From NCBI GenBank assembly GCA_030323885.1, contig CM059186.1, positions 172,375,351-172,439,350 of the forward strand: 64,000 nucleotides of DNA. The letters are read 5' to 3'. The notes below the pieces were generated by a model. That model had not been told where the DNA came from. It made no database searches and worked only from the letters and a program-made list of their open reading frames with translations. Position numbers and translations under genes: made by a program. Below, one piece after another: positions 8,693-61,690 of the stretch (within the stretch, counting starts at the first letter, position 1; each line of letters opens with the position of its first letter). The DNA is from Branchipolynoe longqiensis. Taxonomy: Eukaryota > Annelida > Polychaeta > Phyllodocida > Polynoidae.

Positions 8693-8770
8693 TCACAGCA
8701 GGACCCTACAGAACCTCAGCTTTGAGCAAACCCTAAATATCTCCCAGAGAATAATTGTTTCAAAGATATT

Positions 8771-8949
8771 GTCGTGGGTGTGATGAAAATGGGAAATATT
8801 GCGCATAGAGCGGGACTCGAACCCACATCTCTTTGCATTCCGGGCCAGTGTGCTAACCATTACACCACCTAGGCTCCCTGATATCACCACACTACCCATG
8901 CCTACCTGTCTATGTGGTTACTTGCCTGAGAGGTCAGTGCAGACTACTA
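8771..8949 (-). mobile_element. SINE-A copy (tRNA-like module)
   Basis: On the minus strand a cloverleaf-like module carries an A box around GGTGTAATGGTTAGCAC and the B box GGTTCGAGTCC. About 70 bp of conserved sequence precedes the tRNA-like part (GCACTGACCTCTCAGGCAAG). The 3' end reads CCCATTTTCATCAC. The same 179-bp unit occurs at 48.3 kb and four times at 25.4-26.6 kb. It is called a SINE rather than a tRNA gene because the anticodon arm is mismatched and the copies are dispersed. Confidence 0.75.
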
Positions 8950-12832: not shown

Positions 12833-13054
12833 GCTCAAACTGTTTAACTATGTCTAGTTTTGTCTTAGATATATTCATCAGATCATTATATTGCATGTGT
12901 GCATACATGTTTATGCCAAATTGTTATGTATTTCTATTCATTTTGAATCAAATCAAATTTTGCCCTACGCGTATCGGCAAACTCAATGGCCAGATGCATT
13001 TGCTTTGCTGCCAACGCCGTTTTCAGCGCATGCGCAGTCGGAACAGTGATCTCG

Positions 13055-13255
13055 TCTATTTACTAGAACCTGTTCCCACGGAAAGCTATGAAGTCACAGT
13101 TTTTACAGGCATGCACGCATTAAATTTGCATGTTTACACTTAAAAAATCGTCCTCGTTAGTCATTCTAAATCAACGTTACTTCAAATTAATCTAAGGTGG
13201 ATTATATCGATCAAAATGATATATTTATCTCAGAAAATGACAGAAACTCACAACT
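13055..13255 (+). mobile_element. S-MITE, right part, abutting the satellite
   Basis: Aligns with 49,140-49,355: both contain TTAGTCATTYTAAATCAA, a GATTATANCGATCAA word, ATATATTTA and a GACAGAAACTC-like word just before the terminal repeat. It runs straight into the first satellite unit, so the satellite begins inside the element's terminal inverted repeat. NRF1-like GCGCATGCGC lies just outside at 13,026. Confidence 0.75.
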
Positions 13256-16200
13256 GTTGGATTATGCAGCTTTAAAGCACCATAGTCCAATGAGAACAGT
13301 GTTGGATTATGCAGCTTTAAGGCTCCATAGTCCAATGAGAACACTGTTGGATTATGCAGCTTTAAAGCACCATAGTCCAATGAGGACACTGTTGGATTAT
13401 GCAGCTTTAAAGCACCATAGTCCAATGAGGACACTGTTGGATTATGCAGCTTTAAAGCACCATAGTCCAATGAGAACACTGTTGGATTATGCAGCTTTAA
13501 GGCTCCATAGTCCAATGAGAACACTGTTGGATTATGCAGCTTTAAAGCACCATAGTCCAATGAGAACACTGTTGGATTATGCAGCTTTAAAGCACCATAG
13601 TCCAATGAGAACACTGTTGGATTATGCAGCTTTAAAGCACCATAGTCCAATGAGAACACTGTTGGATTATGCAGCTTTAAAGCACCATAGTCCAATGAGA
13701 ACACTGTTGGATTATGCAGCTTTAAAGCACCATAGTCCAATGAGAACACTGTTGGATTATGCAGCTTTAAAGCACCATAGTCCAATGAGAACACTGTTGG
13801 ATTATGCAGCTTTAAAGCACCATAGTCCAATGAGAACACTGTTGGATTATGCAGCTTTAAAGCACCATAGTCCAATGAGAACACTGTTGGATTATGCAGC
13901 TTTAAAGCACCATAGTCCAATGAGGAACACTGTTGGATTATGCAGCTTTAAAGCACCATAGTCCAATGAGAACACTGTTGGATTATGCAGCTTTAAGGCT
14001 CCATAGTCCAATGAGAACACTGTTGGATTATGCAGCTTTAAAGCTCCATAGTCCAATGAGAACACTGTTGGATTATGCAGCTTTAAAGCACCATAGTCCA
14101 ATGAGAACACTGTTGGATTATGCAGCTTTAAAGCACCATAGTCCAATGAGAACACTGTTGGATTATGCAGCTTTAAGGCTCCATAGTCCAATGAGAACAC
14201 TGTTGGATTATGCAGCTTTAAAGCACCATAGTCCAATGAGAACACTGTTGGATTATGCAGCTTTAAAGCACCATAGTCCAATGAGAACACTGTTGGATTA
14301 TGCAGCTTTAAGGCTCCATAGTCCAATGAGAACACTGTTGGATTATGCAGCTTTAAAGCACCATAGTCCAATGAGAACACTGTTGGATTATGCAGCTTTA
14401 AAGCACCATAGTCCAATGAGAACACTGTTGGATTATGCAGCTTTAAAGCACCATAGTCCAATGAGAACACTGTTGGATTATGCAGCTTTAAGGCTCCATA
14501 GTCCAATGAGAACACTGTTGGATTATGCAGCTTTAAAGCACCATAGTCCAATGAGAACACTGTTGGATTATGCAGCTTTAAAGCACCATAGTCCAATGAG
14601 AACACTGTTGGATTATGCAGCTTTAAAGCACCATAGTCCAATGAGAACACTGTTGGATTATGCAGCTTTAAAGCACCATAGTCCAATGAGGACACTGTTG
14701 GATTATGCAGCTTTAAAGCACCATAGTCCAATGAGAACACTGTTGGATTATGCAGCTTTAAAGCACCATAGTCCAATGAGAACACTGTTGGATTATGCAG
14801 CTTTAAAGCACCATAGTCCAATGAGAACACTGTTGGATTATGCAGCTTTAAAGCACCATAGTCCAATGAGAACACTGTTGGATTATGCAGCTTTAAAGCA
14901 CCATAGTCCAATGAGAACACTGTTGGATTATGCAGCTTTAAAGCACCATAGTCCAATGAGAACACTGTTGGATTATGCAGCTTTAAAGCACCATAGTCCA
15001 ATGAGGACACTGTTGGATTATGCAGCTTTAAAGCACCATAGTCCAATGAGGACACTGTTGGATTATGCAGCTTTAAAGCACCATAGTCCAATGAGAACAC
15101 TGTTGGATTATGCAGCTTTAAAGCACCATAGTCCAATGAGGACACTGTTGGATTATGCAGCTTTAAAGCACCATAGTCCAATGAGAACACTGTTGGATTA
15201 TGCAGCTTTAAAGCACCATAGTCCAATGAGGACACTGTTGGATTATGCAGCTTTAAAGCACCATAGTCCAATGAGGACACTGTTGGATTATGCAGCTTTA
15301 AAGCACCATAGTCCAATGAGGACACTGTTGGATTATGCAGCTTTAAAGCACCATAGTCCAATGAGAACACTGTTGGATTATGCAGCTTTAAAGCACCATA
15401 GTCCAATGAGGACACTGTTGGATTATGCAGCTTTAAAGCACCATAGTCCAATGAGGACACTGTTGGATTATGCAGCTTTAAGGCTCCATAGTCCAATGAG
15501 AACACTGTTGGATTATGCAGCTTTAAAGCACCATAGTCCAATGAGGAACACTGTTGGATTATGCAGCTTTAAAGCACCATAGTCCAATGAGAACACTGTT
15601 GGATTATGCAGCTTTAAAGCACCATAGTCCAATGAGGACACTGTTGGATTATGCAGCTTTAAAGCACCATAGTCCAATGAGAACACTGTTGGATTATGCA
15701 GCTTTAAAGCACCATAGTCCAATGAGAACACTGTTGGATTATGCAGCTTTAAAGCACCATAGTCCAATGAGGACACTGTTGGATTATGCAGCTTTAAAGC
15801 ACCATAGTCCAATGAGGAACACTGTTGGATTATGCAGCTTTAAAGCACCATAGTCCAATGAGGACACTGTTGGATTATGCAGCTTTAAAGCACCATAGTC
15901 CAATGAGAACACTGTTGGATTATGCAGCTTTAAAGCACCATAGTCCAATGAGAACACTGTTGGATTATGCAGCTTTAAAGCACCATAGTCCAATGAGGAC
16001 ACTGTTGGATTATGCAGCTTTAAAGCTCCATAGTCCAATGAGAACACTGTTGGATTATGCAGCTTTAAAGCACCATAGTCCAATGAGAACACTGTTGGAT
16101 TATGCAGCTTTAAAGCACCATAGTCCAATGAGAACACTGTTGGATTATGCAGCTTTAAGGCTCCATAGTCCAATGAGAACACTGTTGGATTATGCAGCTT

Positions 16201-19200
16201 TAAAGCACCATAGTCCAATGAGAACACTGTTGGATTATGCAGCTTTAAAGCTCCATAGTCCAATGAGGACACTGTTGGATTATGCAGCTTTAAGGCTCCA
16301 TAGTCCAATGAGAACACTGTTGGATTATGCAGCTTTAAAGCACCATAGTCCAATGAGAACACTGTTGGATTATGCAGCTTTAAGGCACCATAGTCCAATG
16401 AGAACACTGTTGGATTATGCAGCTTTAAAGCACCATAGTCCAATGAGAACACTGTTGGATTATGCAGCTTTAAAGCACCATAGTCCAATGAGAACACTGT
16501 TGGATTATGCAGCTTTAAAGCACCATAGTCCAATGAGAACACTGTTGGATTATGCAGCTTTAAAGCACCATAGTCCAATGAGAACACTGTTGGATTATGC
16601 AGCTTTAAAGCACCATAGTCCAATGAGAACACTGTTGGATTATGCAGCTTTAAAGCTCCATAGTCCAATGAGAACACTGTTGGATTATGCAGCTTTAAAG
16701 CACCATAGTCCAATGAGAACACTGTTGGATTATGCAGCTTTAAAGCACCATAGTCCAATGAGGACACTGTTGGATTATGCAGCTTTAAAGCACCATAGTC
16801 CAATGAGGACACTGTTGGATTATGCAGCTTTAAAGGCATCCATAGTCCAATGAGGACACTGTTGGATTATGCAGCTTTAAAGCACCATAGTCCGATGAGA
16901 ACACTGTTGGATTATGCAGCTTTAGAGCACCATAGTCCAATGAGAACACTGTTGGATTATGCAGCTTTAAAGCACCATAGTCCAATGAGAACACTGTTGG
17001 ATTATGCAGCTTTAAAGCACCATAGTCCAATGAGAACACTGTTGGATTATGCAGCTTTAAAGCACCATAGTCCAATGAGGACACTGTTGGATTATGCAGC
17101 TTTAAAGCACCATAGTCCAATGAGGACACTGTTGGATTATGCAGCTTTAAAGCACCATAGTCCAATGAGGACACTGTTGGATTATGCAGCTTTAAAGCAC
17201 CATAGTCCAATGAGAACACTGTTGGATTATGCAGCTTTAAAGCTCCATAGTCCAATGAGAACACTGTTGGATTATGCAGCTTTAAAGCACCATAGTCCAA
17301 TGAGGACACTGTTGGATTATGCAGCTTTAAAGCACCATAGTCCAATGAGAACACTGTTGGATTATGCAGCTTTAAAGCTCCATAGTCCAATGAGAACACT
17401 GTTGGATTATGCAGCTTTAAAGCACCATAGTCCAATGAGAACACTGTTGGATTATGCAGCTTTAAAGCACCATAGTCCAATGAGAACACTGTTGGATTAT
17501 GCAGCTTTAAAGCACCATAGTCCAATGAGGACACTGTTGGATTATGCAGCTTTAAAGCACCATAGTCCAATGAGAACACTGTTGGATTATGCAGCTTTAA
17601 AGCACCATAGTCCAATGAGGACACTGTTGGATTATGCAGCTTTAAAGCACCATAGTCCAATGAGGACACTGTTGGATTATGCAGCTTTAAAGCTCCATAG
17701 TCCAATGAGGACACTGTTGGATTATGCAGCTTTAAGGCTCCATAGTCCAATGAGGACACTGTTGGATTATGCAGCTTTAAAGCACCATAGTCCAATGAGA
17801 ACACTGTTGGATTATGCAGCTTTAAAGCACCATAGTCCAATGAGGACACTGTTGGATTATGCAGCTTTAAAGCACCATAGTCCAATGAGGACACTGTTGG
17901 ATTATGCAGCTTTAAAGCACCATAGTCCAATGAGAACACTGTTGGATTATGCAGCTTTAAAGCACCATAGTCCAATGAGAACACTGTTGGATTATGCAGC
18001 TTTAAAGCACCATAGTCCAATGAGAACACTGTTGGATTATGCAGCTTTAAAGCACCATAGTCCAATGAGGACACTGTTGGATTATGCAGCTTTAAAGCAC
18101 CATAGTCCAATGAGAACACTGTTGGATTATGCAGCTTTAAAGCTCCATAGTCCAATGAGGACACTGTTGGATTATGCAGCTTTAAAGCACCATAGTCCAA
18201 TGAGAACACTGTTGGATTATGCAGCTTTAAAGCACCATAGTCCAATGAGGACACTGTTGGATTATGCAGCTTTAAAGCACCATAGTCCAATGAGAACACT
18301 GTTGGATTATGCAGCTTTAAAGCACCATAGTCCAATGAGAACACTGTTGGATTATGCAGCTTTAAGGCTCCATAGTCCAATGAGAACACTGTTGGATTAT
18401 GCAGCTTTAAAGCACCATAGTCCAATGAGAACACTGTTGGATTATGCAGCTTTAAAGCACCATAGTCCAATGAGAACACTGTTGGATTATGCAGCTTTAA
18501 AGCACCATAGTCCAATGAGAACACTGTTGGATTATGCAGCTTTAAAGCACCATAGTCCAATGAGGACACTGTTGGATTATGCAGCTTTAAAGCACCATAG
18601 TCCAATGAGAACACTGTTGGATTATGCAGCTTTAAAGCTCCATAGTCCAATGAGAACACTGTTGGATTATGCAGCTTTAAAGCACCATAGTCCAATGAGG
18701 ACACTGTTGGATTATGCAGCTTTAAAGCACCATAGTCCAATGAGAACACTGTTGGATTATGCAGCTTTAAAGCACCATAGTCCAATGAGAACACTGTTGG
18801 ATTATGCAGCTTTAAAGCACCATAGTCCAATGAGAACACTGTTGGATTATGCAGCTTTAAAGCACCATAGTCCAATGAGAACACTGTTGGATTATGCAGC
18901 TTTAAAGCACCATAGTCCAATGAGAACACTGTTGGATTATGCAGCTTTAAAGCACCATAGTCCAATGAGAACACTGTTGGATTATGCAGCTTTAAAGCAC
19001 CATAGTCCAATGAGAACACTGTTGGATTATGCAGCTTTAAAGCTCCATAGTCCAATGAGAACACTGTTGGATTATGCAGCTTTAAAGCACCATAGTCCAA
19101 TGAGAACACTGTTGGATTATGCAGCTTTAAAGCACCATAGTCCAATGAGAACACTGTTGGATTATGCAGCTTTAAGGCTCCATAGTCCAATGAGAACACT

Positions 19201-22200
19201 GTTGGATTATGCAGCTTTAAAGCACCATAGTCCAATGAGAACACTGTTGGATTATGCAGCTTTAAGGCACCATAGTCCAATGAGAACACTGTTGGATTAT
19301 GCAGCTTTAAAGCACCATAGTCCAATGAGAACACTGTTGGATTATGCAGCTTTAAAGCACCATAGTCCAATGAGAACACTGTTGGATTATGCAGCTTTAA
19401 AGCACCATAGTCCAATGAGAACACTGTTGGATTATGCAGCTTTAAAGCACCATAGTCCAATGAGAACACTGTTGGATTATGCAGCTTTAAAGCACCATAG
19501 TCCAATGAGAACACTGTTGGATTATGCAGCTTTAAAGCACCATAGTCCAATGAGAACACTGTTGGATTATGCAGCTTTAAAGCACCATAGTCCAATGAGG
19601 ACACTGTTGGATTATGCAGCTTTAAAGCACCATAGTCCAATGAGAACACTGTTGGATTATGCAGCTTTAAAGCACCATAGTCCAATGAGGACACTGTTGG
19701 ATTATGCAGCTTTAAGGCTCCATAGTCCAATGAGAACACTGTTGGATTATGCAGCTTTAAAGCACCATAGTCCAATGAGGACACTGTTGGATTATGCAGC
19801 TTTAAGGCACCATAGTCCAATGAGAACACTGTTGGATTATGCAGCTTTAAAGCACCATAGTCCAATGAGAACACTGTTGGATTATGCAGCTTTAAAGCTC
19901 CATAGTCCAATGAGAACACTGTTGGATTATGCAGCTTTAAGGCACCATAGTCCAATGAGAACACTGTTGGATTATGCAGCTTTAAAGCACCATAGTCCAA
20001 TGAGAACACTGTTGGATTATGCAGCTTTAAAGCACCATAGTCCAATGAGAACACTGTTGGATTATGCAGCTTTAAAGCACCATAGTCCAATGAGAACACT
20101 GTTGGATTATGCAGCTTTAAAGCACCATAGTCCAATGAGAACACTGTTGGATTATGCAGCTTTAAAGCACCATAGTCCAATGAGAACACTGTTGGATTAT
20201 GCAGCTTTAAAGCTCCATAGTCCAATGAGAACACTGTTGGATTATGCAGCTTTAAAGCACCATAGTCCAATGAGAACACTGTTGGATTATGCAGCTTTAA
20301 AGCACCATAGTCCAATGAGAACACTGTTGGATTATGCAGCTTTAAAGCACCATAGTCCAATGAGAACACTGTTGGATTATGCAGCTTTAAAGCACCATAG
20401 TCCAATGAGAACACTGTTGGATTATGCAGCTTTAAAGCACCATAGTCCAATGAGAACACTGTTGGATTATGCAGCTTTAAAGCACCATAGTCCAATGAGG
20501 ACACTGTTGGATTATGCAGCTTTAAAGCTCCATAGTCCAATGAGGACACTGTTGGATTATGCAGCTTTAAAGCACCATAGTCCAATGAGAACACTGTTGG
20601 ATTATGCAGCTTTAAAGCACCATAGTCCAATGAGAACACTGTTGGATTATGCAGCTTTAAGGCTCCATAGTCCAATGAGAACACTGTTGGATTATGCAGC
20701 TTTAAAGCACCATAGTCCAATGAGAACACTGTTGGATTATGCAGCTTTAAAGCACCATAGTCCAATGAGGACACTGTTGGATTATGCAGCTTTAAGGCTC
20801 CATAGTCCAATGAGAACACTGTTGGATTATGCAGCTTTAAAGCACCATAGTCCAATGAGAACACTGTTGGATTATGCAGCTTTAAAGCACCATAGTCCAA
20901 TGAGGACACTGTTGGATTATGCAGCTTTAAAGCTCCATAGTCCAATGAGAACACTGTTGGATTATGCAGCTTTAAAGCTCCATAGTCCAATGAGGACACT
21001 GTTGGATTATGCAGCTTTAAAGCTCCATAGTCCAATGAGAACACTGTTGGATTATGCAGCTTTAAGGCTCCATAGTCCAATGAGAACACTGTTGGATTAT
21101 GCAGCTTTAAAGCACCATAGTCCAATGAGAACACTGTTGGATTATGCAGCTTTAAAGCACCATAGTCCAATGAGGACACTGTTGGATTATGCAGCTTTAA
21201 AGCACCATAGTCCAATGAGAACACTGTTGGATTATGCAGCTTTAAAGCACCATAGTCCAATGAGAACACTGTTGGATTATGCAGCTTTAAAGCACCATAG
21301 TCCAATGAGAACACTGTTGGATTATGCAGCTTTAAAGCACCATAGTCCAATGAGAACACTGTTGGATTATGCAGCTTTAAAGCACCATAGTCCAATGAGA
21401 ACACTGTTGGATTATGCAGCTTTAAAGCACCATAGTCCAATGAGAACACTGTTGGATTATGCAGCTTTAAAGCACCATAGTCCAATGAGAACACTGTTGG
21501 ATTATGCAGCTTTAAAGCACCATAGTCCAATGAGAACACTGTTGGATTATGCAGCTTTAAAGCACCATAGTCCAATGAGGACACTGTTGGATTATGCAGC
21601 TTTAAAGCACCATAGTCCAATGAGAACACTGTTGGATTATGCAGCTTTAAGGCACCATAGTCCAATGAGAACACTGTTGGATTATGCAGCTTTAAAGCAC
21701 CATAGTCCAATGAGAACACTGTTGGATTATGCAGCTTTAAAGCTCCATAGTCCAATGAGAACACTGTTGGATTATGCAGCTTTAAAGCACCATAGTCCAA
21801 TGAGAACACTGTTGGATTATGCAGCTTTAAGGCTCCATAGTCCAATGAGAACACTGTTGGATTATGCAGCTTTAAGGCACCATAGTCCAATGAGGAACAC
21901 TGTTGGATTATGCAGCTTTAAAGCACCATAGTCCAATGAGGACACTGTTGGATTATGCAGCTTTAAAGCACCATAGTCCAATGAGAACACTGTTGGATTA
22001 TGCAGCTTTAAGGCTCCATAGTCCAATGAGAACACTGTTGGATTATGCAGCTTTAAAGCACCATAGTCCAATGAGAACACTGTTGGATTATGCAGCTTTA
22101 AAGCACCATAGTCCAATGAGAACACTGTTGGATTATGCAGCTTTAAAGCACCATAGTCCAATGAGAACACTGTTGGATTATGCAGCTTTAAAGCACCATA

Positions 22201-25200
22201 GTCCAATGAGAACACTGTTGGATTATGCAGCTTTAAGGCTCCATAGTCCAATGAGGACACTGTTGGATTATGCAGCTTTAAAGCACCATAGTCCAATGAG
22301 GACACTGTTGGATTATGCAGCTTTAAAGCACCATAGTCCAATGAGAACACTGTTGGATTATGCAGCTTTAAGGCTCCATAGTCCAATGAGAACACTGTTG
22401 GATTATGCAGCTTTAAAGCACCATAGTCCAATGAGAACACTGTTGGATTATGCAGCTTTAAAGCACCATAGTCCAATGAGAACACTGTTGGATTATGCAG
22501 CTTTAAAGCACCATAGTCCAATGAGAACACTGTTGGATTATGCAGCTTTAAGGCTCCATAGTCCAATGAGAACACTGTTGGATTATGCAGCTTTAAAGCA
22601 CCATTGTCCAATGAGAACACTGTTGGATTATGCAGCTTTAAAGCACCATAGTCCAATGAGAACACTGTTGGATTATGCAGCTTTAAGGCACCATAGTCCA
22701 ATGAGGACACTGTTGGATTATGCAGCTTTAAGGCTCCATAGTCCAATGAGAACACTGTTGGATTATGCAGCTTTAAAGCTCCATAGTCCAATGAGGACAC
22801 TGTTGGATTATGCAGCTTTAAGGCTCCATAGTCCAATGAGGACACTGTTGGATTATGCAGCTTTAAAGCTCCATAGTCCAATGAGAACACTGTTGGATTA
22901 TGCAGCTTTAAGGCACCATAGTCCAATGAGAACACTGTTGGATTATGCAGCTTTAAAGCACCATAGTCCAATGAGAACACTGTTGGATTATGCAGCTTTA
23001 AAGCACCATAGTCCAATGAGAACACTGTTGGATTATGCAGCTTTAAAGCACCATAGTCCAATGAGAACACTGTTGGATTATGCAGCTTTAAAGCACCATA
23101 GTCCAATGAGAACACTGTTGGATTATGCAGCTTTAAAGCTCCATAGTCCAATGAGGACACTGTTGGATTATGCAGCTTTAAAGCTCCATAGTCCAATGAG
23201 AACACTGTTGGATTATGCAGCTTTAAAGCACCATAGTCCAATGAGAACACTGTTGGATTATGCAGCTTTAAGGCTCCATAGTCCAATGAGAACACTGTTG
23301 GATTATGCAGCTTTAAAGCACCATAGTCCAATGAGAACACTGTTGGATTATGCAGCTTTAAAGCACCATAGTCCAATGAGAACACTGTTGGATTATGCAG
23401 CTTTAAAGCACCATAGTCCAATGAGAACACTGTTGGATTATGCAGCTTTAAGGCTCCATAGTCCAATGAGAACACTGTTGGATTATGCAGCTTTAAAGCA
23501 CCATAGTCCAATGAGAACACTGTTGGATTATGCAGCTTTAAAGCACCATAGTCCAATGAGAACACTGTTGGATTATGCAGCTTTAAAGCACCATAGTCCA
23601 ATGAGAACACTGTTGGATTATGCAGCTTTAAAGCACCATAGTCCAATGAGAACACTGTTGGATTATGCAGCTTTAAAGCACCATAGTCCAATGAGAACAC
23701 TGTTGGATTATGCAGCTTTAAAGCACCATAGTCCAATGAGGACACTGTTGGATTATGCAGCTTTAAGGCTCCATAGTCCAATGAGAACACTGTTGGATTA
23801 TGCAGCTTTAAAGCTCCATAGTCCAATGAGAACACTGTTGGATTATGCAGCTTTAAAGCACCATAGTCCAATGAGAACACTGTTGGATTATGCAGCTTTA
23901 AAGCTCCATAGTCCAATGAGAACACTGTTGGATTATGCAGCTTTAAAGCACCATAGTCCAATGAGAACACTGTTGGATTATGCAGCTTTAAAGCACCATA
24001 GTCCAATGAGAACACTGTTGGATTATGCAGCTTTAAAGCACCATAGTCCAATGAGGACACTGTTGGATTATGCAGCTTTAAAGCACCATAGTCCAATGAG
24101 AACACTGTTGGATTATGCAGCTTTAAAGCACCATAGTCCAATGAGAACACTGTTGGATTATGCAGCTTTAAAGCACCATAGTCCAATGAGAACACTGTTG
24201 GATTATGCAGCTTTAAAGCACCATAGTCCAATGAGAACACTGTTGGATTATGCAGCTTTAAGGCTCCATAGTCCAATGAGAACACTGTTGGATTATGCAG
24301 CTTTAAAGCTCCATAGTCCAATGAGAACACTGTTGGATTATGCAGCTTTAAAGCACCATAGTCCAATGAGAACACTGTTGGATTATGCAGCTTTAAGGCT
24401 CCATAGTCCAATGAGAACACTGTTGGATTATGCAGCTTTAAGGCTCCATAGTCCAATGAGAACACTGTTGGATTATGCAGCTTTAAGGCTCCATAGTCCA
24501 ATGAGAACACTGTTGGATTATGCAGCTTTAAGGCTCCATAGTCCAATGAGAACACTGTTGGATTATGCAGCTTTAAAGCACCATAGTCCAATGAGAACAC
24601 TGTTGGATTATGCAGCTTTAAAGCACCATAGTCCAATGAGAACACTGTTGGATTATGCAGCTTTAAAGCTCCATAGTCCAATGAGAACACTGTTGGATTA
24701 TGCAGCTTTAAAGCACCATAGTCCAATGAGAACACTGTTGGATTATGCAGCTTTAAAGCACCATAGTCCAATGAGAACACTGTTGGATTATGCAGCTTTA
24801 AAGCACCATAGTCCAATGAGAACACTGTTGGATTATGCAGCTTTAAAGCACCATAGTCCAATGAGAACACTGTTGGATTATGCAGCTTTAAGGCACCATA
24901 GTCCAATGAGAACACTGTTGGATTATGCAGCTTTAAGGCTCCATAGTCCAATGAGAACACTGTTGGATTATGCAGCTTTAAGGCACCATAGTCCAATGAG
25001 AACACTGTTGGATTATGCAGCTTTAAAGCACCATAGTCCAATGAGAACACTGTTGGATTATGCAGCTTTAAAGCACCATAGTCCAATGAGAACACTGTTG
25101 GATTATGCAGCTTTAAAGCACCATAGTCCAATGAGAACACTGTTGGATTATGCAGCTTTAAGGCTCCATAGTCCAATGAGAACACTGTTGGATTATGCAG

Positions 25201-25316
25201 CTTTAAAGCACCATAGTCCAATGAGAACACTGTTGGATTATGCAGCTTTAAGGCTCCATAGTCCAATGAGAACACTGTTGGATTATGCAGCTTTAAGGCT
25301 CCATAGTCCAATGAGA
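13256..25316. repeat. 45-bp satellite array, 268 units, 12.06 kb
   Basis: The unit is GTTGGATTATGCAGCTTTAA + AGCACCATAGTCC + AATGAGAACACT. Spacing gives 268 units, with the last cut about 5 bp short. Five irregular units shift phase: +1 near 13,925, 15,545, 15,815 and 21,894 (each GAGGAACACT), and +2 near 16,833 (AAAGGCATCC). Variation is almost confined to position 21 (A/G), 24 (A/T) and 40 (A/G). The unit is an imperfect 34-bp palindrome centred on TTTAAA. Each half corresponds to the terminal inverted repeat of S-MITE, whose parts flank the array on both sides. Confidence 0.98.
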
Positions 25317-25422
25317 AAATCCACATTTTCTAAACCAAAAGATTTACGTAGATTTTAAGCTACATATCCAACGTGAACATCTTATTCACTTAATCGTGTG
25401 TTGCTGCATATAATTAGATGCT
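25317..25422 (+). mobile_element. S-MITE, left part, abutting the satellite
   Basis: After the last satellite unit the sequence continues as AAAATCCACATTTTCTAAAC, then GTAGATTTTAAGCTACATAT. This matches the reverse complement of 46,140-46,235 (TTTTCAAAACCAAACC, TAGATTTCATTCTACATATC). It is truncated at about 25,422 by the SINE-A array. Its orientation is the same as the left flank, so the array sits between two head-to-tail copies. Confidence 0.75.
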
Positions 25423-26566
25423 GTAGTAGTCAGCACTGACCTCTCAGGCAAGTAACCACATAGACAGGTAGGTGTGGGGAGTGTGGTGATATCAGGGAGT
25501 CTAGGTGGTCTAATGGTTAGCACACTGGCCCGGAGTGCCAAGAGATGTAGGTTCGAGTCCCGCTCTAGGTGCAATATTTCCCATTTTCATCACCCCCACA
25601 ACACTGGTTGCCGTGATCAGGATCCTGTACAAGCTTTGCGCTGTATGGTTGTTGAACCTACCCTGTGTATGCATGTGTTAGTGCATTGCCTGTATGTATG
25701 TAATTGTAAGCATTACAAGACTGACAATTCCAGGGGGACGAGTGTAGTGGTCTGCACTGACCTCTCAGGCAAGTAACCACATAGACAGGTAGGCATGGGT
25801 AGTGTGGTGATATCAGGGAGCCTAGGTGGTGTAATGGTTAGCACACTGGCCTGGAGTGCCAAGAGATGCGGGTTCGAGTCCTGCTCTAGGCACAGTATTT
25901 CCCATTTTCATCACCCCCACAACACTGGTTGCCGTGATCATGATCCTGTACAAGCTTTGCGCTGTATGGTTGTTGAACCTACCCTGTGTATGTATGTGTT
26001 AGTGCATTGCCTGTATGTATGTAATTGTCAGCATTAAAATACTTACAATTCCAGGGGGACGAGTGTAGTGGTCTGCACTGACCTCTCATGCAAGTAACCA
26101 CATAGACAGGTATGCGTGGTTAGTGTGGTGATATTAGGGAGTCTAGGTGGTGAAATGGTTAGCACACTGGCCCGGAGTGCCAAGAGATGTAGGTTTGAGT
26201 CCCGCTCTAGGTGCAATATTCCCCATTTTCATCACCCCCACGACACTGGTTGCCGTGATCAGGATCCTGTACAAGCTTTGCGCTGTATGGTTGTTGAACC
26301 TACCCTGTGTATGTATGTGTTAGTGCATTGCCTGTATTTATGTAATTGTCAGCATTAAAATACTTACAATTCCAGGGGGACGAGTGTAGTGGTCTGCACT
26401 GACCTCTCATGCAAGTAACCACATAGACAGGTATGCGTGGTTAGTGTGGTGATATTAGGGAGTCTAGGTGGTGAAATGGTTAGCACACTGGCCCGGAGTG
26501 CCAAGAGATGTAGGTTCGAGTCCCGCTCTAGGTGCAATATTTCCCATTTTCATCACCCCCACGACA
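25423..26566 (+). repeat. Tandem SINE-A array: four copies, 321-bp period
   Basis: Four SINE-A units (about 179 bp each) alternate with three copies of a ~142-bp spacer (CTGTACAAGCTTTGCGCTGT; AATTCCAGGGGGACGAGTG). Corresponding bases are 321 bp apart (tRNA-like starts near 25,500, 25,821, 26,142 and 26,463). The second copy has the best cloverleaf: acceptor GCCTAGG pairs with TCTAGGC, D loop AATGGTTA, T arm GCGGG-TTCGAGT-CCTGC, apparent anticodon GGA. Serine tRNAs need a long variable arm, which is missing here, and other copies lose U33. These are therefore scored as tRNA-like repeats. The array touches the S-MITE flank of the satellite. Confidence 0.85.
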
Positions 26567-26584
26567 ATAATAAGCAAATATAAT

Positions 26585-26782
26585 ATAACAATTCACTGCT
26601 GAAGCCAATGATGTTTGCAATTTGAAATGCTTGCCAAAAATTGATTTGACATGTTTTCAATTCAAATATTTCCAAAGTTAGCCATTTAAAATAAAAGTCA
26701 CTGCAGACTAAAGTAAAGTAGATAATACTGTTCAAGCAATTTAACTCAGGAAATGGCAGAAACTCGAAAACGATGCAACTTT
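26585..26782 (+). mobile_element. S-MITE fragment
   Basis: Contains the family words CTGCTGAAGCC, TATTTCCAAAGTTA, AGTAAAGTAGATAATACTG and the right end GGCAGAAACTCGAAAACGAT plus GCAACTTT. The left part is missing. Confidence 0.65.
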
Positions 26783-26828
26783 GACCCTTTTGGGCAGGGA
26801 ACACCTGGGGCACATACAAGTATTATGC

Positions 26829-37789: not shown

Positions 37790-38015
37790 CATCATTTCAT
37801 AATGTAGATTTCCCACTTTTCATAATGTAGATTTCACATGTTTCATCATGCATATTTATAACATTTCATAATGTAGATTTCACACATTTCATAATGTAGA
37901 TTTCACACGTTTCATAATGTGGATTTCACACATTTCATCATGCATATTTATAACATTTCATAATCTAGATTTCACACATTTCATCATGCATATTTATAAC
38001 ATTGCATAATGTAGA
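37790..38015. repeat. 23-bp minisatellite, left block
   Basis: Two alternating 23-bp unit types: CATAATGTAGATTTCACACATTT-like and CATCATGCATATTTATAAC-like. About ten units. The array resumes after the LINE-A insertion at 39,027. Confidence 0.85.
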
Positions 38016-39026
38016 TTACCAATGGGGTCAAGCAAGGTTGTGTACTGGCCCCCATGCTCTTCTCCATCTTCCTATCAGCAATGCTCGATGAGGCTTTCCG
38101 AGGCATGGGGGATGGTGTCTATATACAGTCCAGACAGAGCGCTGACCTACTCAATGTCGCACACTTCAGAGCGAAGATCAAGACTACTCAGATACTGGTG
38201 AGAGAGCTGCTATTCACAGATGACAGTGCGCTGGTTGCCCACTCTTCTGAAGAGATCCAGAAAATAGTGGACGCTTTCTCCGATGTTCCTCCAAAGAAGT
38301 TTGGCCTGAAGATTAACATCAAGAAGATGGAGGTCCTGTACCAACCCAACTCTACAAGAACCCGAGAGGAGGATATCATGGTTGGCGGAAACAAGCTGAA
38401 CTCTGTTCCGGAATTCACCTACCTCAGAAGCACTTTATCAAGTGATGGATGCATTGATGCTGAAATACAGAGGAGGATGGCCAAGACTAGTGCATCTTTC
38501 GGCTGCCTATGCCAGAGACTCTGGAACAACCACCATGTGTCCATGCAGGTCAAAGGCAAGATCTACCATGCAATCATGCTATCCACCCTACTATATGGAG
38601 CCAAGGCCTGGACAGTGTACAGACGACAGGTGAAAAAGCTGCATGCCTTCAAGATGCGACATCTGTGTTCGATCATGAGGCTAACTTGGAAGGACAAAGT
38701 GACAAATAAGGAAATACTTGAACGGACATGGCTGCCATCTACGAAAGAACTTCTGATCAAAAAGAATCTCCGGTGGACTGGACACGTCATGAGGATGTTA
38801 TCAGACAGGCTACCAAAGCAGATCCTCTATTCACAACTGTCTTCTGGTTACACAAAGAGAGGGGGCCCTCGTCTCCGGTTCAAGGATACCATCAAGAGAA
38901 ACCTCAAGCTGAGAGACATTAAGACTGACTCATGGACATCACTCTCACAGCAGAGAGCTAAATGGAGAGCGACAGTCAAGTAATGAAAGCAGTCTTTGTC
39001 ACATCGCGACCGACAGCATGATAATG
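38016..39026 (+). pseudogene. LINE-A copy 1: reverse-transcriptase C-terminal half, long open frame
   Basis: A single frame of about 320 codons is open from TNGVKQGCVLAPMLFS (upstream of the ATG at 38,054) to WRATVK and a stop at 38,983. The catalytic box reads LLFTDDSALVAHS (FADD in the copy at 53.4 kb). Then come FGLKINIKKMEVL, a VPEFTYLRS box, LLYGAKAWTVYRRQ and LRWTGHVMRM. The endonuclease and N-terminal RT are missing, so it cannot be autonomous. The 3' end is CGACCGACAGCATGATAATG. AATGTAGA flanks both sides, a possible target duplication, although the host minisatellite repeats that word anyway. Confidence 0.88.
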
Positions 39027-39255
39027 AATGTAGATTTCACACATTTCATAATGTAGATTTCACACATCTCATCATGCATATTTATAACATGTCATAATGT
39101 AGATTTCACACATTTCATAATGTATATTTCACACATTTCAGCATGCATAATTTCTTTAAAAAATCATAATGTAAATTTCACACATTTCATTATGCATATT
39201 TAGCACATTTAATAATGTATATTTATCACATTTCACATTTGACAATGTATATGTG
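39027..39255. repeat. 23-bp minisatellite, right block
   Basis: Continuation of the array at 37,790-38,015, with the same TTTCACACATTTCATAATG and CATCATGCATATTTA words. Confidence 0.85.
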
Positions 39256-40600: not shown

Positions 40601-40861
40601 CAAATAATAAAGAAACATTTTCAAGATTTTGCTGGAAGCAATGCAATATTCATGCCATAACTGGATTATCCATGCCCTTTCACGGCTCAGTAGTCTAATT
40701 AGAACTTAGACAGTCCGGAGAGTATCACATTAGACTCATACTTCTGTCCACGTACTGTGTCACACCCACACTCGGAAACCGGGAGCTGCATTTGAATGAT
40801 ATTACGGAAAGCTCTGAGTGCAATATGCAATCACTTCACATCTCACCGAGATTAAAAACTC

Positions 40862-41233
40862 AAAGTTGCATGATTCAATGACTTTGACTTTCTGCTCCAT
40901 TTACTCTTTTTATTTATTCTATTTTTGGGTATAGATTAATGCATTAGATACACTAGGTTGATCATTATAATCCACTTTACCTTAAGCTGAAGTACATTTT
41001 ATTTCAAACGTTAACTTTGGAGATATTTGAAGTGGAAACATTGCAAATGATTAATAATTTCACGGTTTAAATAAGTTAGATATATAGGATCAAATCTAGC
41101 TAGGTGAAATTTGGTATGCACACAGAAATGATGTACAGAACTGCATTCAGTGGTAACAGGCTCTATTAAATTGACTTAGGATTCCTTCCTTACAAATAAC
41201 ATTAAATCTAGCTAAGTGTCTTAGGGGCTACAA
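40862..41233 (-). mobile_element. S-MITE copy, diverged
   Basis: Begins AAAGTTGCATGATTCAATGA and carries the family body (GGTTGATCATTATAATCCAC; GGAGATATTTGAAGTGGAAA; AGTGGTAACAGGCTCTATTA), ending near AAATCTAGCTAAGTG. The right terminal repeat is not recognisable. Confidence 0.7.
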
Positions 41234-45535: not shown

Positions 45536-45895
45536 ACAGCTTGTGATACCACTTACGGCAAGACTTCTCACCTTCAGCCAAATTGAGGCGTAATGCGGGG
45601 CGTTGAATTTGATTCATTGCAGGGGGGGGGGGGGAGGAACCGCCTGGGCTGTTCTACTCTGCTCCCGCTGGACTCTCGCCTCAAACCTCGCTCACCCGAG
45701 ACCCCACCTATCGCCTCCCATCAGAACATACTGCCATTTCCCGCACTACTCCTCCAGCAGCCGAGACATCAGGGCCGACTTTTCCACCAAAGCATCTTAC
45801 TATTTCTGTTGTTGTTTGTTCCTTCCTGTTCCTTCTCCTGTACTCCTGTATTGTTCCAATCACTTGTTCCTTGTGGGCTCCTCGGGCATCTAATA

Positions 45896-46249
45896 TTAAA
45901 GTTGCATAGTGCGCTGGTTTTGAGTTTCTCTCATTTTCTGAGATAAACATATTAGGTTGATCGTTATTATCTACCGTACTTTAGTTTGAAGTGGCTTTCA
46001 GTTTAAGTCGCAAACTTTTGACATATTTGAAATGGAAACATGCTAAATTAATTTTGGCAAGCTTGCCAAAACTCTATCATCATAGGCTTCTGCAGTAACA
46101 GGTTCTATTAATTGACTCAGTCGTCCCTTCTATGTGCCGGTAAATGCTTAATAAGAGCATCAGTATCTAAGGTAGATATGTAGAATGAAATCTAGATAAT
46201 TGGTTTGGTTTTGAAAATTTGATGTTTTCATCGGACTATGCAGCTTGAA
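45896..46249 (-). mobile_element. S-MITE, complete copy, 354 bp
   Basis: The ends TTAAAGTTGCATAGTGCGCT and (inverse) CGGACTATGCAGCTTGAA form the family's terminal inverted repeats. The body has TGTAGAATGAAATCTAGATA, GCAGTAACAGGTTCTATTAA and AGGTTGATCGTTATTATC. No ORF. This copy gives the clearest internal sequence for comparison with both flanks of the satellite. Confidence 0.8.
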
Positions 46250-46364
46250 TAAACTCTCCTTACCCCCAGCTAGCATTCCTCTCCTTGTTTGCGGATGACA
46301 TTTTCATGCCCTACTTACAGTTACACTCGTGTTTGCTATCGCTTGTGTGGTGTGTGACGTAGTA

Positions 46365-46905
46365 CACAGTCCGATGGTTTTGAGTTTCTTTTAAGCTGTT
46401 GTTGTTGAAGTTTTACATCCTGGCGGCATCTAAGGTCATATCAGGATGGGTACCGACTTGTGACAGTGCACACTCATGGCGACTTTGTAGTGATGACCCA
46501 TTCTGAAATCATGCCGCCAGCACCATGACCCGATATCCCACTCAATCACATTATCCTGACACTGAGCTAACCAGTCCTTGCCCTATCCTATTAATGCCGA
46601 GTGCCTGGCTAGGAAGCAACAAGTATCAATTTTGTAAGTCATTGGTTTGACTCGACCGGGAACCAAACTCCCGATGTCCCGCACACGAGGCTCACGTTCT
46701 ACCAGTTCATCCACCACGCCCAGTGAGTTTCGTTTATGATAAACACTTTATGTTGATCACCACTCTCTAGTTTCCCTTAGTTCTAAGCACCTTTGATTTA
46801 AAAAGGCTAATTTTGGAATTATTTGGCATGAAAACATGCACAATTAATGTTGGTATGCATGTTCAAATGAGCTTCAACAATGATAGCTTCTATCAAATTG
46901 ACTTA
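46365..46905 (-). mobile_element. S-MITE copy interrupted by SINE-B
   Basis: Left end CAGTCCGATGGTTTTGAG; the body resumes after the SINE (ACTTTATGTTGATCACCACT; TATGCATGTTCAAATGAGCT) and stops at CAAATTGACTT. Instead of its own second half, the sequence then turns into the left end of another copy. Confidence 0.7.
46390..46724 (-). mobile_element. SINE-B inserted in S-MITE
   Basis: Full-length reverse copy, flanked by GAGTTTC on both sides (46,382 and 46,725), a short target duplication. Body TCATATCAGGATGGGTACCG, head GAACCAAACTCCCG-like. Confidence 0.88.
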
Positions 46906-46976
46906 AAATTGCATAGTCCGTTAAAAGCAAACCATTTTCGAAAGCAAAGCACTTATCGAGATTTGCACTGACATTT
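46905..46976 (+). mobile_element. S-MITE left-end fragment
   Basis: TAAAATTGCATAGTCCGTTA, then AGCAAAGCACTTATCGAGAT. This matches the left end of the 48,985 copy in its + orientation and is cut off by a poly-T tract. Confidence 0.65.
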
Positions 46977-47300: not shown

Positions 47301-47379
47301 CCCTGTCCTTAGATAGTACACCAGTGTGCCAGAACACACCTGGACACTTCAGCTTAGATACTGGTGCACTCATTAAGCA

Positions 47380-47465
47380 CACTCACACTCACACCCACAC
47401 CCACCCACACTCACTCACCCACACCCACTCACACTCACTCACCCACACCCACACCCACTCACACC
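47380..47465. repeat. CACACCCACT repeat
   Basis: Short (CACTCACACC)n block, about 85 bp. Confidence 0.85.
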
Positions 47466-48318: not shown

Positions 48319-48333
48319 CTGCTGTATATGTAT

Positions 48334-48503
48334 GTAGTAGTCTGCACTGACCTTTCAGGCAAGACAGGTAGGCGTCGGTAGTGTGGTGACATCAGGGGCC
48401 TAGGTGGTGTAATGGTTATCACACCGGCTCGGAATGCAAAGAGATGTGGGTTCGAGTCCCGCTGTAGGTGCAATATTTCCAATATTCATCACCCCCAACG
48501 ACA
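48334..48503 (+). mobile_element. SINE-A copy
   Basis: Has the conserved upstream part (GCACTGACCTTTCAGGCAAG with a short deletion), the tRNA-like part (GGTGTAATGGTTATCACA; GGGTTCGAGTCCCGC) and the TTCATCACCCCCAACGAC end. Confidence 0.8.
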
Positions 48504-48924: not shown

Positions 48925-48986
48925 ACATATCCCTGAAATATATCATGGCAGAAACTAAAAAAATACTCATCAGATTATGCAACTCT
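48925..48986 (+). mobile_element. S-MITE right-end fragment
   Basis: ATCATGGCAGAAACTAAAAA, then CATCAGATTATGCAACTCTA, equivalent to the right terminal repeat. It is joined directly to the left end of the next copy. Confidence 0.75.
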
Positions 48987-49355
48987 AAGGTTGCATAATC
49001 CGATAAAGGCATGCAATTGTCTCAAGCAAAACACTGATCTAGATTGGAATCTAAATACCTAACTTAGATTCTGCTGCACTTAGTAAGCATTATTAAGCAT
49101 CGGTTGTTGTTAATTAGAGGGGTGTACTAAGTGGACTTAATACAACCTGTTCGTGCTGAAGCCTATGAGGAGTCAGAGTTTTGACAAGCACACCGAAATT
49201 AACATTGGCAATAGCATATTTACGCTTAACATATTCCACGAATTAGTCATTTTAAATCAAGCTAAAATAAGATAGATTATAACGATCAACCTAATAATAT
49301 ATTTAACTTCAGGAAACGACAAAAAACCCAAAACCATCGGACTGCGCAACTTTAA
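48985..49355 (+). mobile_element. S-MITE, complete copy, 371 bp
   Basis: Starts CTAAGGTTGCATAATCCGAT and ends CGGACTGCGCAACTTTAA. The body has TTAATACAACCTGTTCGTGC and GGCAATAGCATATTTACGC. It lies head to tail with the fragment before it, and their junction aligns gap-free to one 45-bp satellite unit. Confidence 0.82.
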
Positions 49356-49359
49356 ATAT

Positions 49360-55779: not shown

Positions 55780-56125
55780 ACCACCACCACCGCCACCACC
55801 ACCACCACCGCCACCACCACCACCACCACCACCACCACCACCACCACCACCACCACCACCGCCACCACCACCACCACCACCGCCGCCACCACCACCACCA
55901 CCACCACCACCACCGCCACCACCACCACCACCACCACCACCACCGCCACCACCACCACAATCACCACCACCACCACCGCCACCACCACCACCACCACCGC
56001 CGCCACCACCACCACCACCACCACCACCACCACCCGCCACCGCCACCACCACCACCACCACCGCCACCACCACCACCACCACCACCACCGCCACCACCAC
56101 CACCACCACCACCACCACCACCGCC
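55780..56125. repeat. (CCA)n/(CCG)n trinucleotide repeat
   Basis: About 345 bp of ACC with ACCGCC interruptions. Homopolymeric Thr, Pro, His, Val, Trp and Gly frames follow from it. Confidence 0.95.
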
Positions 56126-56129
56126 TACA

Positions 56130-56492
56130 TGAAAGCTGTATACTCTGATGGTTTTCGAGTGTCATTAGTTTTGTTGTCTAGATAAATATATTATGTTGAT
56201 CTTTATAATCTACCTTCCTTTAATTTGAAGTACTTTTGATTATAAGTGGGTAACCTTAGAGATATTTGAAGTAAAAATATGCCAAATTAACATTGGCATG
56301 CACCTTGAAAATCGGACGCCATAGGCTTCAGCAGTAACAGGTTCTGTTGGAATGACTCAGAATTAATTCCCTTCTACACAGCATCAAGTGTTTAATACAT
56401 GCACAAGTATCTGAGTTGAACAAGTGGGAACACATCTAGCTAAATGCTTTGATTGGAAAACTTGTTGATTTCATCGGACTGTGCAGCTTTAA
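56130..56492 (-). mobile_element. S-MITE, complete copy, 363 bp
   Basis: Ends GAAAGCTGTATACTCTGATG and (inverse) CGGACTGTGCAGCTTTAA. The body has CAGCAGTAACAGGTTCTGTT, ATGTTGATCTTTATAATC and CTTAGAGATATTTGAAGT. It abuts the ACC repeat. Confidence 0.8.
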
Positions 56493-56579
56493 GGAAACAT
56501 AAACAATCTTCAATCTAAGTTCAACAACTAAGAACCAAACACCTGAGTCCATCTATGAATAACATCGAATTACTGACAC

Positions 56580-60479: not shown

Positions 60480-61690
60480 ATCCAAGGTCAGCTGGCAGGT
60501 CCAGTTAATTAATTCCTCTCCGTTGATTTATATTTCCATACTGAATTATAGTACACATCAATATTTTAAATTGACATACCATTATTTAAGTTGCTGTAAC
60601 ATCAATCCGCAATGGGTAACTTTGGTCATATTTGGATTGATAGCTTAACAAAATAATGTGTATGTACACATCAATGTTTCTGCAATTGAAGCCAGGTTTG
60701 GACCCAGGTAGAATAGTGCAGGTGTATCAATTTCACAGCTACACAGGAACGGGATGGCACTCACCGTGTTGTGGCATGTGTTACATTTTGCTTTTCTCTG
60801 GGGACAGTTTTAAGGTTATTAACAAGCTGTCTTTTGCATCGTGTAGATAACATGTTCTTCTTTATCTGGGTCTTCAAGACTATTGAATCTGTCAATTAGA
60901 AGTTTAATTAAAGTGGTTCCGAATTCTTTCTTGTTTCCGTTTATCTAAAACCTCTGCAAATCAGCAAAACTGGAGGCTATTCATTTTTTAACCTACCATT
61001 TTGTTTTCTATCTATCTACCAATTTTCATGAAGATTCGGTGATGATCAGATGCATTTTGAGGATGCACAGAACGTGATGTGAACAAAGTCCTCACCCCAT
61101 CCACTGAGTTCACTCGAAGCTCTCCCTTCCGCTTGCTCGATTTTGGGTCACAACTTTGAGTTTGATCAGTTTTACTATAGAACAAAGAGGCCAAAATGGA
61201 TTTCCCAACTCCAAATCAACTGAACTTTCTTGCTATTTACGTTAGAAACATTATTTGGCTAATATGATGAAGTTCCATTCAAGCACTTTCGATTTATATG
61301 TTACATTAAGATAAATTTCATTCTAAAAAAATCAGCACGTAGGCCTACCTAAATCATTGAGTTTGCCGATACGCTCAGTGCAAAACTTCAATTATATTCA
61401 AAATTAAAAGAAATACAGAACGATAAACAAATTGATTTAATATAATCTGTTTGATAAACATGTTATCTATTTGCGTGCCAAGCATTTTGTTTCTAGGTGG
61501 TGCAGATTTAGAAATATTTCACTTTTTCTGTATGAAGATTGCTCATGGCCAGGTATTGTTCTGCAGCCAAGTTGCACGTGCACATACCTAATTATCTATG
61601 CTGACGTCATGTGAAATAGGTTTATTATGTAGAGACATGAGAAACGTCAACAATCCCTTGTCCCTCTAGAGGACACTGGTACCTTCTGAT
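60480..61690. other. Unannotated AT-rich interval
   Basis: No gene, SINE or MITE recognised. Short frames (about 60 aa) exist on both strands but show no domain. A TCATGAAGATTCGGTGATGA word near 61,027 looks like a decayed dispersed repeat. Confidence 0.4.

Follow-up and report, generated by a model that had tools for sequence, protein, structure and literature searches.

The window, a 64,000-nucleotide stretch of contig CM059186.1 of the annelid Branchipolynoe longqiensis, is full of simple repeats (137 rows from Tandem Repeats Finder, TRF) and contains a tandem array of 45-bp units that match each other at 97% according to TRF (Table 1). Each unit consists of a right-end (R) part, ACTGTTGGATTATGCAGCT, the tetramer TTAA and a left-end (L) part, AGCACCATAGTCCAATGAGAAC. 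A transposable element homologous to this unit is present at the locus, which makes the array a transposon-derived satellite or minisatellite. A recount by cutting at the junction tetramer, with an anchor pattern that admitted only TTAA and TTAG, gave 268 junction anchors (267 TTAA and one TTAG) and 267 complete units between them, which were 45 bp long in 262 cases, 46 bp in four and 47 bp in one. The exact unit and junction patterns had no matches in a set of bacterial, archaeal and viral contigs, outside which the window's own genome may lie.

The junction itself is an imperfect palindrome of 34 bp (82% complementary in an inverted-repeat search) made of the right TIR, TTAA and the left TIR. 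Hairpin folding of unit variants beat that of shuffled sequences in both phases, with z-scores of -4.0 and -3.0 from TTAA to TTAA and of -2.7, -2.7 and -3.3 in the R-L phase, and the palindrome may promote stalling or breakage. Both strands of the array have open frames exceeding 1,100 codons, with up to 1710 codons across 13191-25358, which follows from 45 being a multiple of 3. The array was rejected as a gene; a protein search with one 256-aa stretch of an array open frame returned no candidate. A gene finder could nevertheless predict a false repeat protein at this position.

The family to which the unit is related is ~350-375 bp long, non-coding, present in several copies and bounded by inverted ends, as is typical of MITEs. 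Grouping of HMM matches resulted in ~8 copies or fragments in the window, including the dispersed copies A, B and C, while a weak match at 60577-60640 (E 0.011) was not counted as a copy. In A, B and C, either end matched the TIR at 17-21 of 22 positions, and a TIR scan outside the array returned eight matches of at least 17/22, all of them at the ends of these copies, of the element at 46902 or at the 48972 junction. The 46902 element lies in the opposite orientation to its host, fragment D, is followed by an insert starting with poly-T, and possibly continues at 47348-47380 (nhmmer E 1.7e-4).

Table 1. Repeats and MITE family members in the window, with strand and supporting evidence.
Feature	Position	Strand	Evidence
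MITE1 right half (model 142-370)	13054..13277	+	nhmmer E 3.8e-35
45-bp tandem array, R-end/TTAA/L-end repeated, 268.0 copies	13253..25317	+	TRF, unit parsing
MITE2 left part (model 1-127, matched to 25410)	25285..25421	+	nhmmer E 2.4e-11
tRNA-Ser-derived SINE, 3.6 tandem copies, 321-bp period	25422..26566	+	TRF, 4 ARAGORN tRNA-Ser, 4 Rfam tRNA matches
MITE2 right half (model 142-369)	26574..26785	+	nhmmer E 1.1e-29
Rearranged MITE copy E, three pieces	40857..41215	-	nhmmer E 2.5e-15, 1.1e-7, 7.5e-4
Dispersed MITE copy A	45891..46252	-	model source
MITE fragment D, apparently broken at TTAA by another family member	46726..46908	-	nhmmer E 2e-19
MITE L end, at TTAA within fragment D	46902..46974	+	nhmmer E 2.6e-11; sequence
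Second R-TTAA-L-type junction, tetramer CTAA, one copy, unamplified, at left end of copy B	48972..49001	+	23/30 ungapped
Dispersed MITE copy B	48977..49359	+	model source
Dispersed MITE copy C	56125..56500	-	model source

Copies A, B and C each have an intact TTAA at one flank, while the tetramer at the opposite flank differs from it by one base (TTCA, CTAA and TTCA, respectively), and no empty site was seen. All seven termini that were read start with two purines, either AG or GG (left ends read inward: A AGCTG, B GGTTG, C AGCTG and MITE2 GGCTC; right ends read inward: A AGTTG, B AGTTG and C AGCTG). A TTAA target together with a purine-purine (RR) terminus is described for the Kolobok superfamily in the cited part of PMC6004289; both features were found here, which is a weak criterion with TTAA intact on only one side of each copy, and judging from these ends the family appears Kolobok-like only. 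The terminal AGGRR motif given for the Xenopus T2-MITEs (cited part of PMC6004289) was present at none of the seven termini, and the left ends start with AG or GG and not with CCC, the start reported for the piggyBac-like coral CMITE families I-VI in the cited part of PMC2872659.

A profile HMM was then built from copies A, B and C alone, with the array flanks kept out of the model. It matched the right half of one element (MITE1) on one side of the array and the left part of another (MITE2) on the other, both in the same orientation, and the best E value in the controls (the reversed window and five block shuffles) was 4.1. The original prediction, which regarded both flanks as parts of an S-MITE in one orientation and proposed aligning them to a model of the copies at 45.9, 48.99 and 56.13 kb, was thus confirmed on the plus strand on either side. 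The right end of MITE1 passes unbroken into the first array unit. Its left half was absent upstream of 13054 in an nhmmer scan listed to E 10. Just upstream of MITE1 lies a 70-bp repeat (12920-12988) that recurs on the opposite strand at 61355-61424 with 83% identity, and it may be part of whatever replaced the MITE1 left half.

MITE2 is split at ~model 127-142 by the tandem tRNA-Ser SINE, relatives of which are present at 8770-8949 (-) and 48333-48503 (+). Its right half, which had been missed by the original prediction and was newly found by the HMM, lies beyond the SINE, and the right flank is therefore a nearly whole, interrupted element, the right TIR of which shows an 8-bp gap relative to the model. 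A recent common duplication as the source of MITE1 and MITE2 was rejected, because the right halves of the two share 135 of 211 positions and are hence no closer than MITE1 and copy A (157/223).

The two parts of the unit were compared with the available ends of the family, taking the best ungapped match in each case. The R part was identical to the right end of MITE1 (23/23) and matched the right ends of A, B and C at 16, of E at 15 and of MITE2 at 14 of 23 positions. For the L part, the GTA variant was identical to the left end of MITE2 (25/25), while the left ends of A, B, C and the 46902 element reached 20, 16, 19 and 16 of 25; AAA, the commonest unit variant, matched the MITE2 left end at 23/25. 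The composition proposed originally, a left plus a right terminal repeat of the S-MITE, thereby holds, and the unit looks like a chimera of the MITE1 right end and the MITE2 left end. Since the left half of MITE1 is missing, its own left end could also have donated the L part. Given the two perfect matches, an R-TTAA-L junction that was duplicated is favoured as the source, ahead of inserted micro-MITEs and of a captured satellite. Later homogenisation of the edge copies with the array could create the same identity and is the main risk to the junction reading. Read by eye, the new joint within the unit carries ~1 base of either filler or overlap, and long homology was therefore probably not used in the founding duplication.

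Junctions of this type were also searched for elsewhere in the window, using an ungapped scan with a perfect 30-bp palindromic junction, which covers both strands at once, and a threshold of 20/30. Outside the array it returned just the junction at 48972-49001 and copy C's own end (22/30); among 20 block shuffles, one scored 21, one scored 20 and 18 gave nothing. At 48972, right-end-like sequence lies immediately upstream of the left end of copy B with CTAA between them. Alignment of this sequence to the R end was significant when the TIR was included (p<=0.001) and non-significant for the subterminal part alone (p 0.16), and the site is therefore a junction of at least a TIR. No abutting partner was found at the left flanks of A and C or at the right flanks of A, B, C and MITE2. 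Adjoining ends of family members thus occur three times in the window, and one instance is amplified. The array and the 48972 junction each have a single shared tetramer at the joint (one TTAA and CTAA, respectively), as a double insertion with a common target duplication predicts.

MITE pairs that overlap over at least 129 columns were ~60-75% identical (A and B, for example, at 253/353, and MITE1 and MITE2 as above). Given the ~97% identity of the units, the array is probably much younger than the MITE copies. Polishing of near-identical units during assembly may have shifted or erased some of the variants described here. Within the 262 units of 45 bp, substitutions relative to the majority unit were found at seven positions, of which three are common and lie in the L half (43, 59 and 53 units), while the other four are single. 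The variation is nearly all in the L half, and the final 19 bases, which belong to the R half, equal the majority in 266 of the 267 complete units.

At the three main variable sites, each of the eight possible combinations was present, which suggests exchange between units. Linkage was apparent between sites 5 and 8 (r2 0.36) and weak or absent for the other pairs (r2 0.016 and 0.002). The order of the variants showed no higher-order period up to lag 79 (maximum z 3.07 versus 3.28 for the 95% permutation null), and the longest repeated string of units was nine, which is also the commonest value in 60 shuffles. Neighbouring units were barely more alike than shuffled ones, with an excess of 0.014, 0.035 and 0.044 at lags 1-3 (p 0.27, 0.08 and 0.03, uncorrected). 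Site-5 G (rho 0.19, p 0.002) and site-8 T (rho 0.17, p 0.005) became more frequent towards MITE2, as did the combination of site-5 G, site-8 T and site-24 A (p 0.035), and the site-24 variant became less frequent (p 0.02); these trends assume exchangeable units, the three sites are interdependent, and MITE2's own end is counted as the last anchor. The rise of MITE2-like states towards MITE2 suits, and does not prove, donation of the L part by MITE2.

How the array may have grown was explored in a coarse simulation with eight founders, blocks of 1, 3, 10 or 30 units and 0, 1 or 3 conversions per added unit, using 40 runs per setting for means only and then 60 runs for 5-95% ranges. Duplication of one unit at a time without conversion gave mean excesses of 0.47, 0.45 and 0.44 at lags 1-3 (40 runs) and 5% bounds of 0.029, 0.021 and 0.014; the observed value at lag 1 falls just below its bound and those at lags 2 and 3 inside, which weakly disfavours this mode. 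With blocks of 30 and conversion, the observed values at lags 2 and 3 were slightly above the 95% bounds (0.026-0.032 and 0.029-0.031), as was the value at lag 3 with blocks of 10 and three conversions (0.041), while all other settings included all three observed values. The simulated ranges are wide and overlapping and therefore allow no firm choice between unequal exchange, slippage and conversion. The original prediction that the array grew from an R-end/L-end junction is supported, in a more specific form, by the unit's matches to MITE1 and MITE2 and by the unamplified junction at 48972-49001; the odds of a junction origin do not depend on the growth mode.

I consider it likely that the array descends from a duplicated R-TTAA-L junction of two diverged, head-to-tail MITEs and grew, most likely, by unequal exchange and conversion. 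Two diverged members of this TTAA-flanked, Kolobok-like family would first have been brought head to tail with one TTAA in common, most simply by one MITE inserting at the target duplication of the other. The 34-bp junction palindrome would then have been duplicated with little or no homology, presumably by joining a point ~23 bp within the MITE1 right end to a point ~22 bp within the MITE2 left end, and the resulting 45-bp repeat would have expanded in a minisatellite-like manner to ~268 units. The SINE tandem that interrupts MITE2 would be a later event.

The junction might also have been more than a passive starting point. It is conceivable, though improbable, that R-TTAA-L junctions are amplification hotspots, at which cutting or stalling is repaired by duplication of the junction; the palindrome should also be a transposase substrate. 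If so, head-to-tail insertion at TTAA duplications would be a general and repeatable route to new satellites with hairpin units, and the unit numbers at junctions would form a series across the genome.

A similarly small chance is given to a micro-MITE that arose by internal deletion, measures 41 bp from TTAA to TTAA and formed a tandem through repeated TTAA insertion or duplication, with MITE1 and MITE2 as mere flanks. Cut at TTAA, the unit is indeed a TIR-loop-TIR hairpin (-10 kcal/mol, z -4.0), TTAA is present at all anchors except one, and at 46902 one family member is located at a TTAA within another. However, with a foreign micro-MITE the flanking ends should match the unit at only ~14-16/23 and 16-20/25, whereas they are identical to it, unless converted later, and a deletion within MITE2 is disfavoured by the 14/23 match of its own right end. 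When the rest of the window was scanned for a solitary 49-mer, without a background control, the best score was 28/49, at three places including the 48972 junction.

Rolling-circle amplification of a circular, end-joined product followed by reinsertion appears very unlikely, even though a circle of a TTAA element could bear an R-TTAA-L joint. A rolling circle of a whole MITE predicts a repeat of ~350-375 bp and not 45 bp, and the element matched by the R part is not the one matched by the L part. The missing period up to lag 79 gives no support for a circle of several variant units, while a one-unit circle whose copies diverged afterwards could still be accommodated. Capture or invasion of a pre-existing satellite by MITEs, as proposed for Xenopus miDNA4 in the cited part of PMC12628747, is hardly credible here, as the unit halves are the MITE's own ends, arranged R to L around TTAA, and no internal array was found in copies A, B or C.

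Going back to the duplicated junction, several of its ingredients have precedents. TE-derived satellites, tandem TE dimers formed by insertion at target duplications and MITE-derived arrays are known, as the cited parts of PMC12628747, PMC9659126, PMC2872659, PMC4079207 and PMC6004289 describe. The double-insertion model of satellite birth (McGurk and Barbash, 2018, as described in parts of PMC12628747 and PMC9659126) likewise starts from same-family elements in tandem with a common target duplication, which then expand. In the accounts cited, however, the repeat is the element itself (hobo, in up to 16 tandem copies), while here the 45-bp junction alone is repeated ~268 times.

The Xenopus Xmix MITE and Xstir offer a further parallel, namely a TTAA-target MITE (T2, presumed Kolobok) that gives rise to tandem arrays, with two nearby elements and hybrid elements being invoked (parts of PMC6004289, PMC9659126 and PMC12628747). 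The source of Xstir is an amplified internal segment according to the cited part of PMC6004289 and the TIR according to a table in PMC9659126, and a joint of two elements as the unit was not found in the descriptions cited from these three sources. Coral CMITE arrays resemble the present case in consisting of tandem TTAA-flanked MITEs, for which replication slippage was invoked, but they contain full-size elements of ~100 bp with piggyBac-like CCC left ends, and the cited part of PMC2872659 contains no junction-only unit. Similarly, the Tetris TIR-220 satellite of Drosophila virilis derives from sequence inside transposon TIRs, but its ~220-bp repeats are already tandem in the TIR, and a joint between elements is unmentioned in the cited part of PMC4079207. 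Nor do the cited parts of PMC8210747 and PMC7004042 contain anything on junction-only MITE satellites. Searches of an open-access library turned up no satellite that repeats only the terminal junction between two different MITEs and still has both parental elements beside it.

While transposon-derived satellites are well known, their founding step often escapes observation. The present window contains both candidate parents, the joint and an unamplified sister junction, which allows a letter-by-letter assignment of the unit to two parents. With this assignment, the founding step can be tested in comparisons of alleles and relatives.

Elsewhere in the window, a reverse-transcriptase fragment (38015-38983) is flanked on both sides by arrays of a 23-bp repeat (37793-38017 and 39027-39235).
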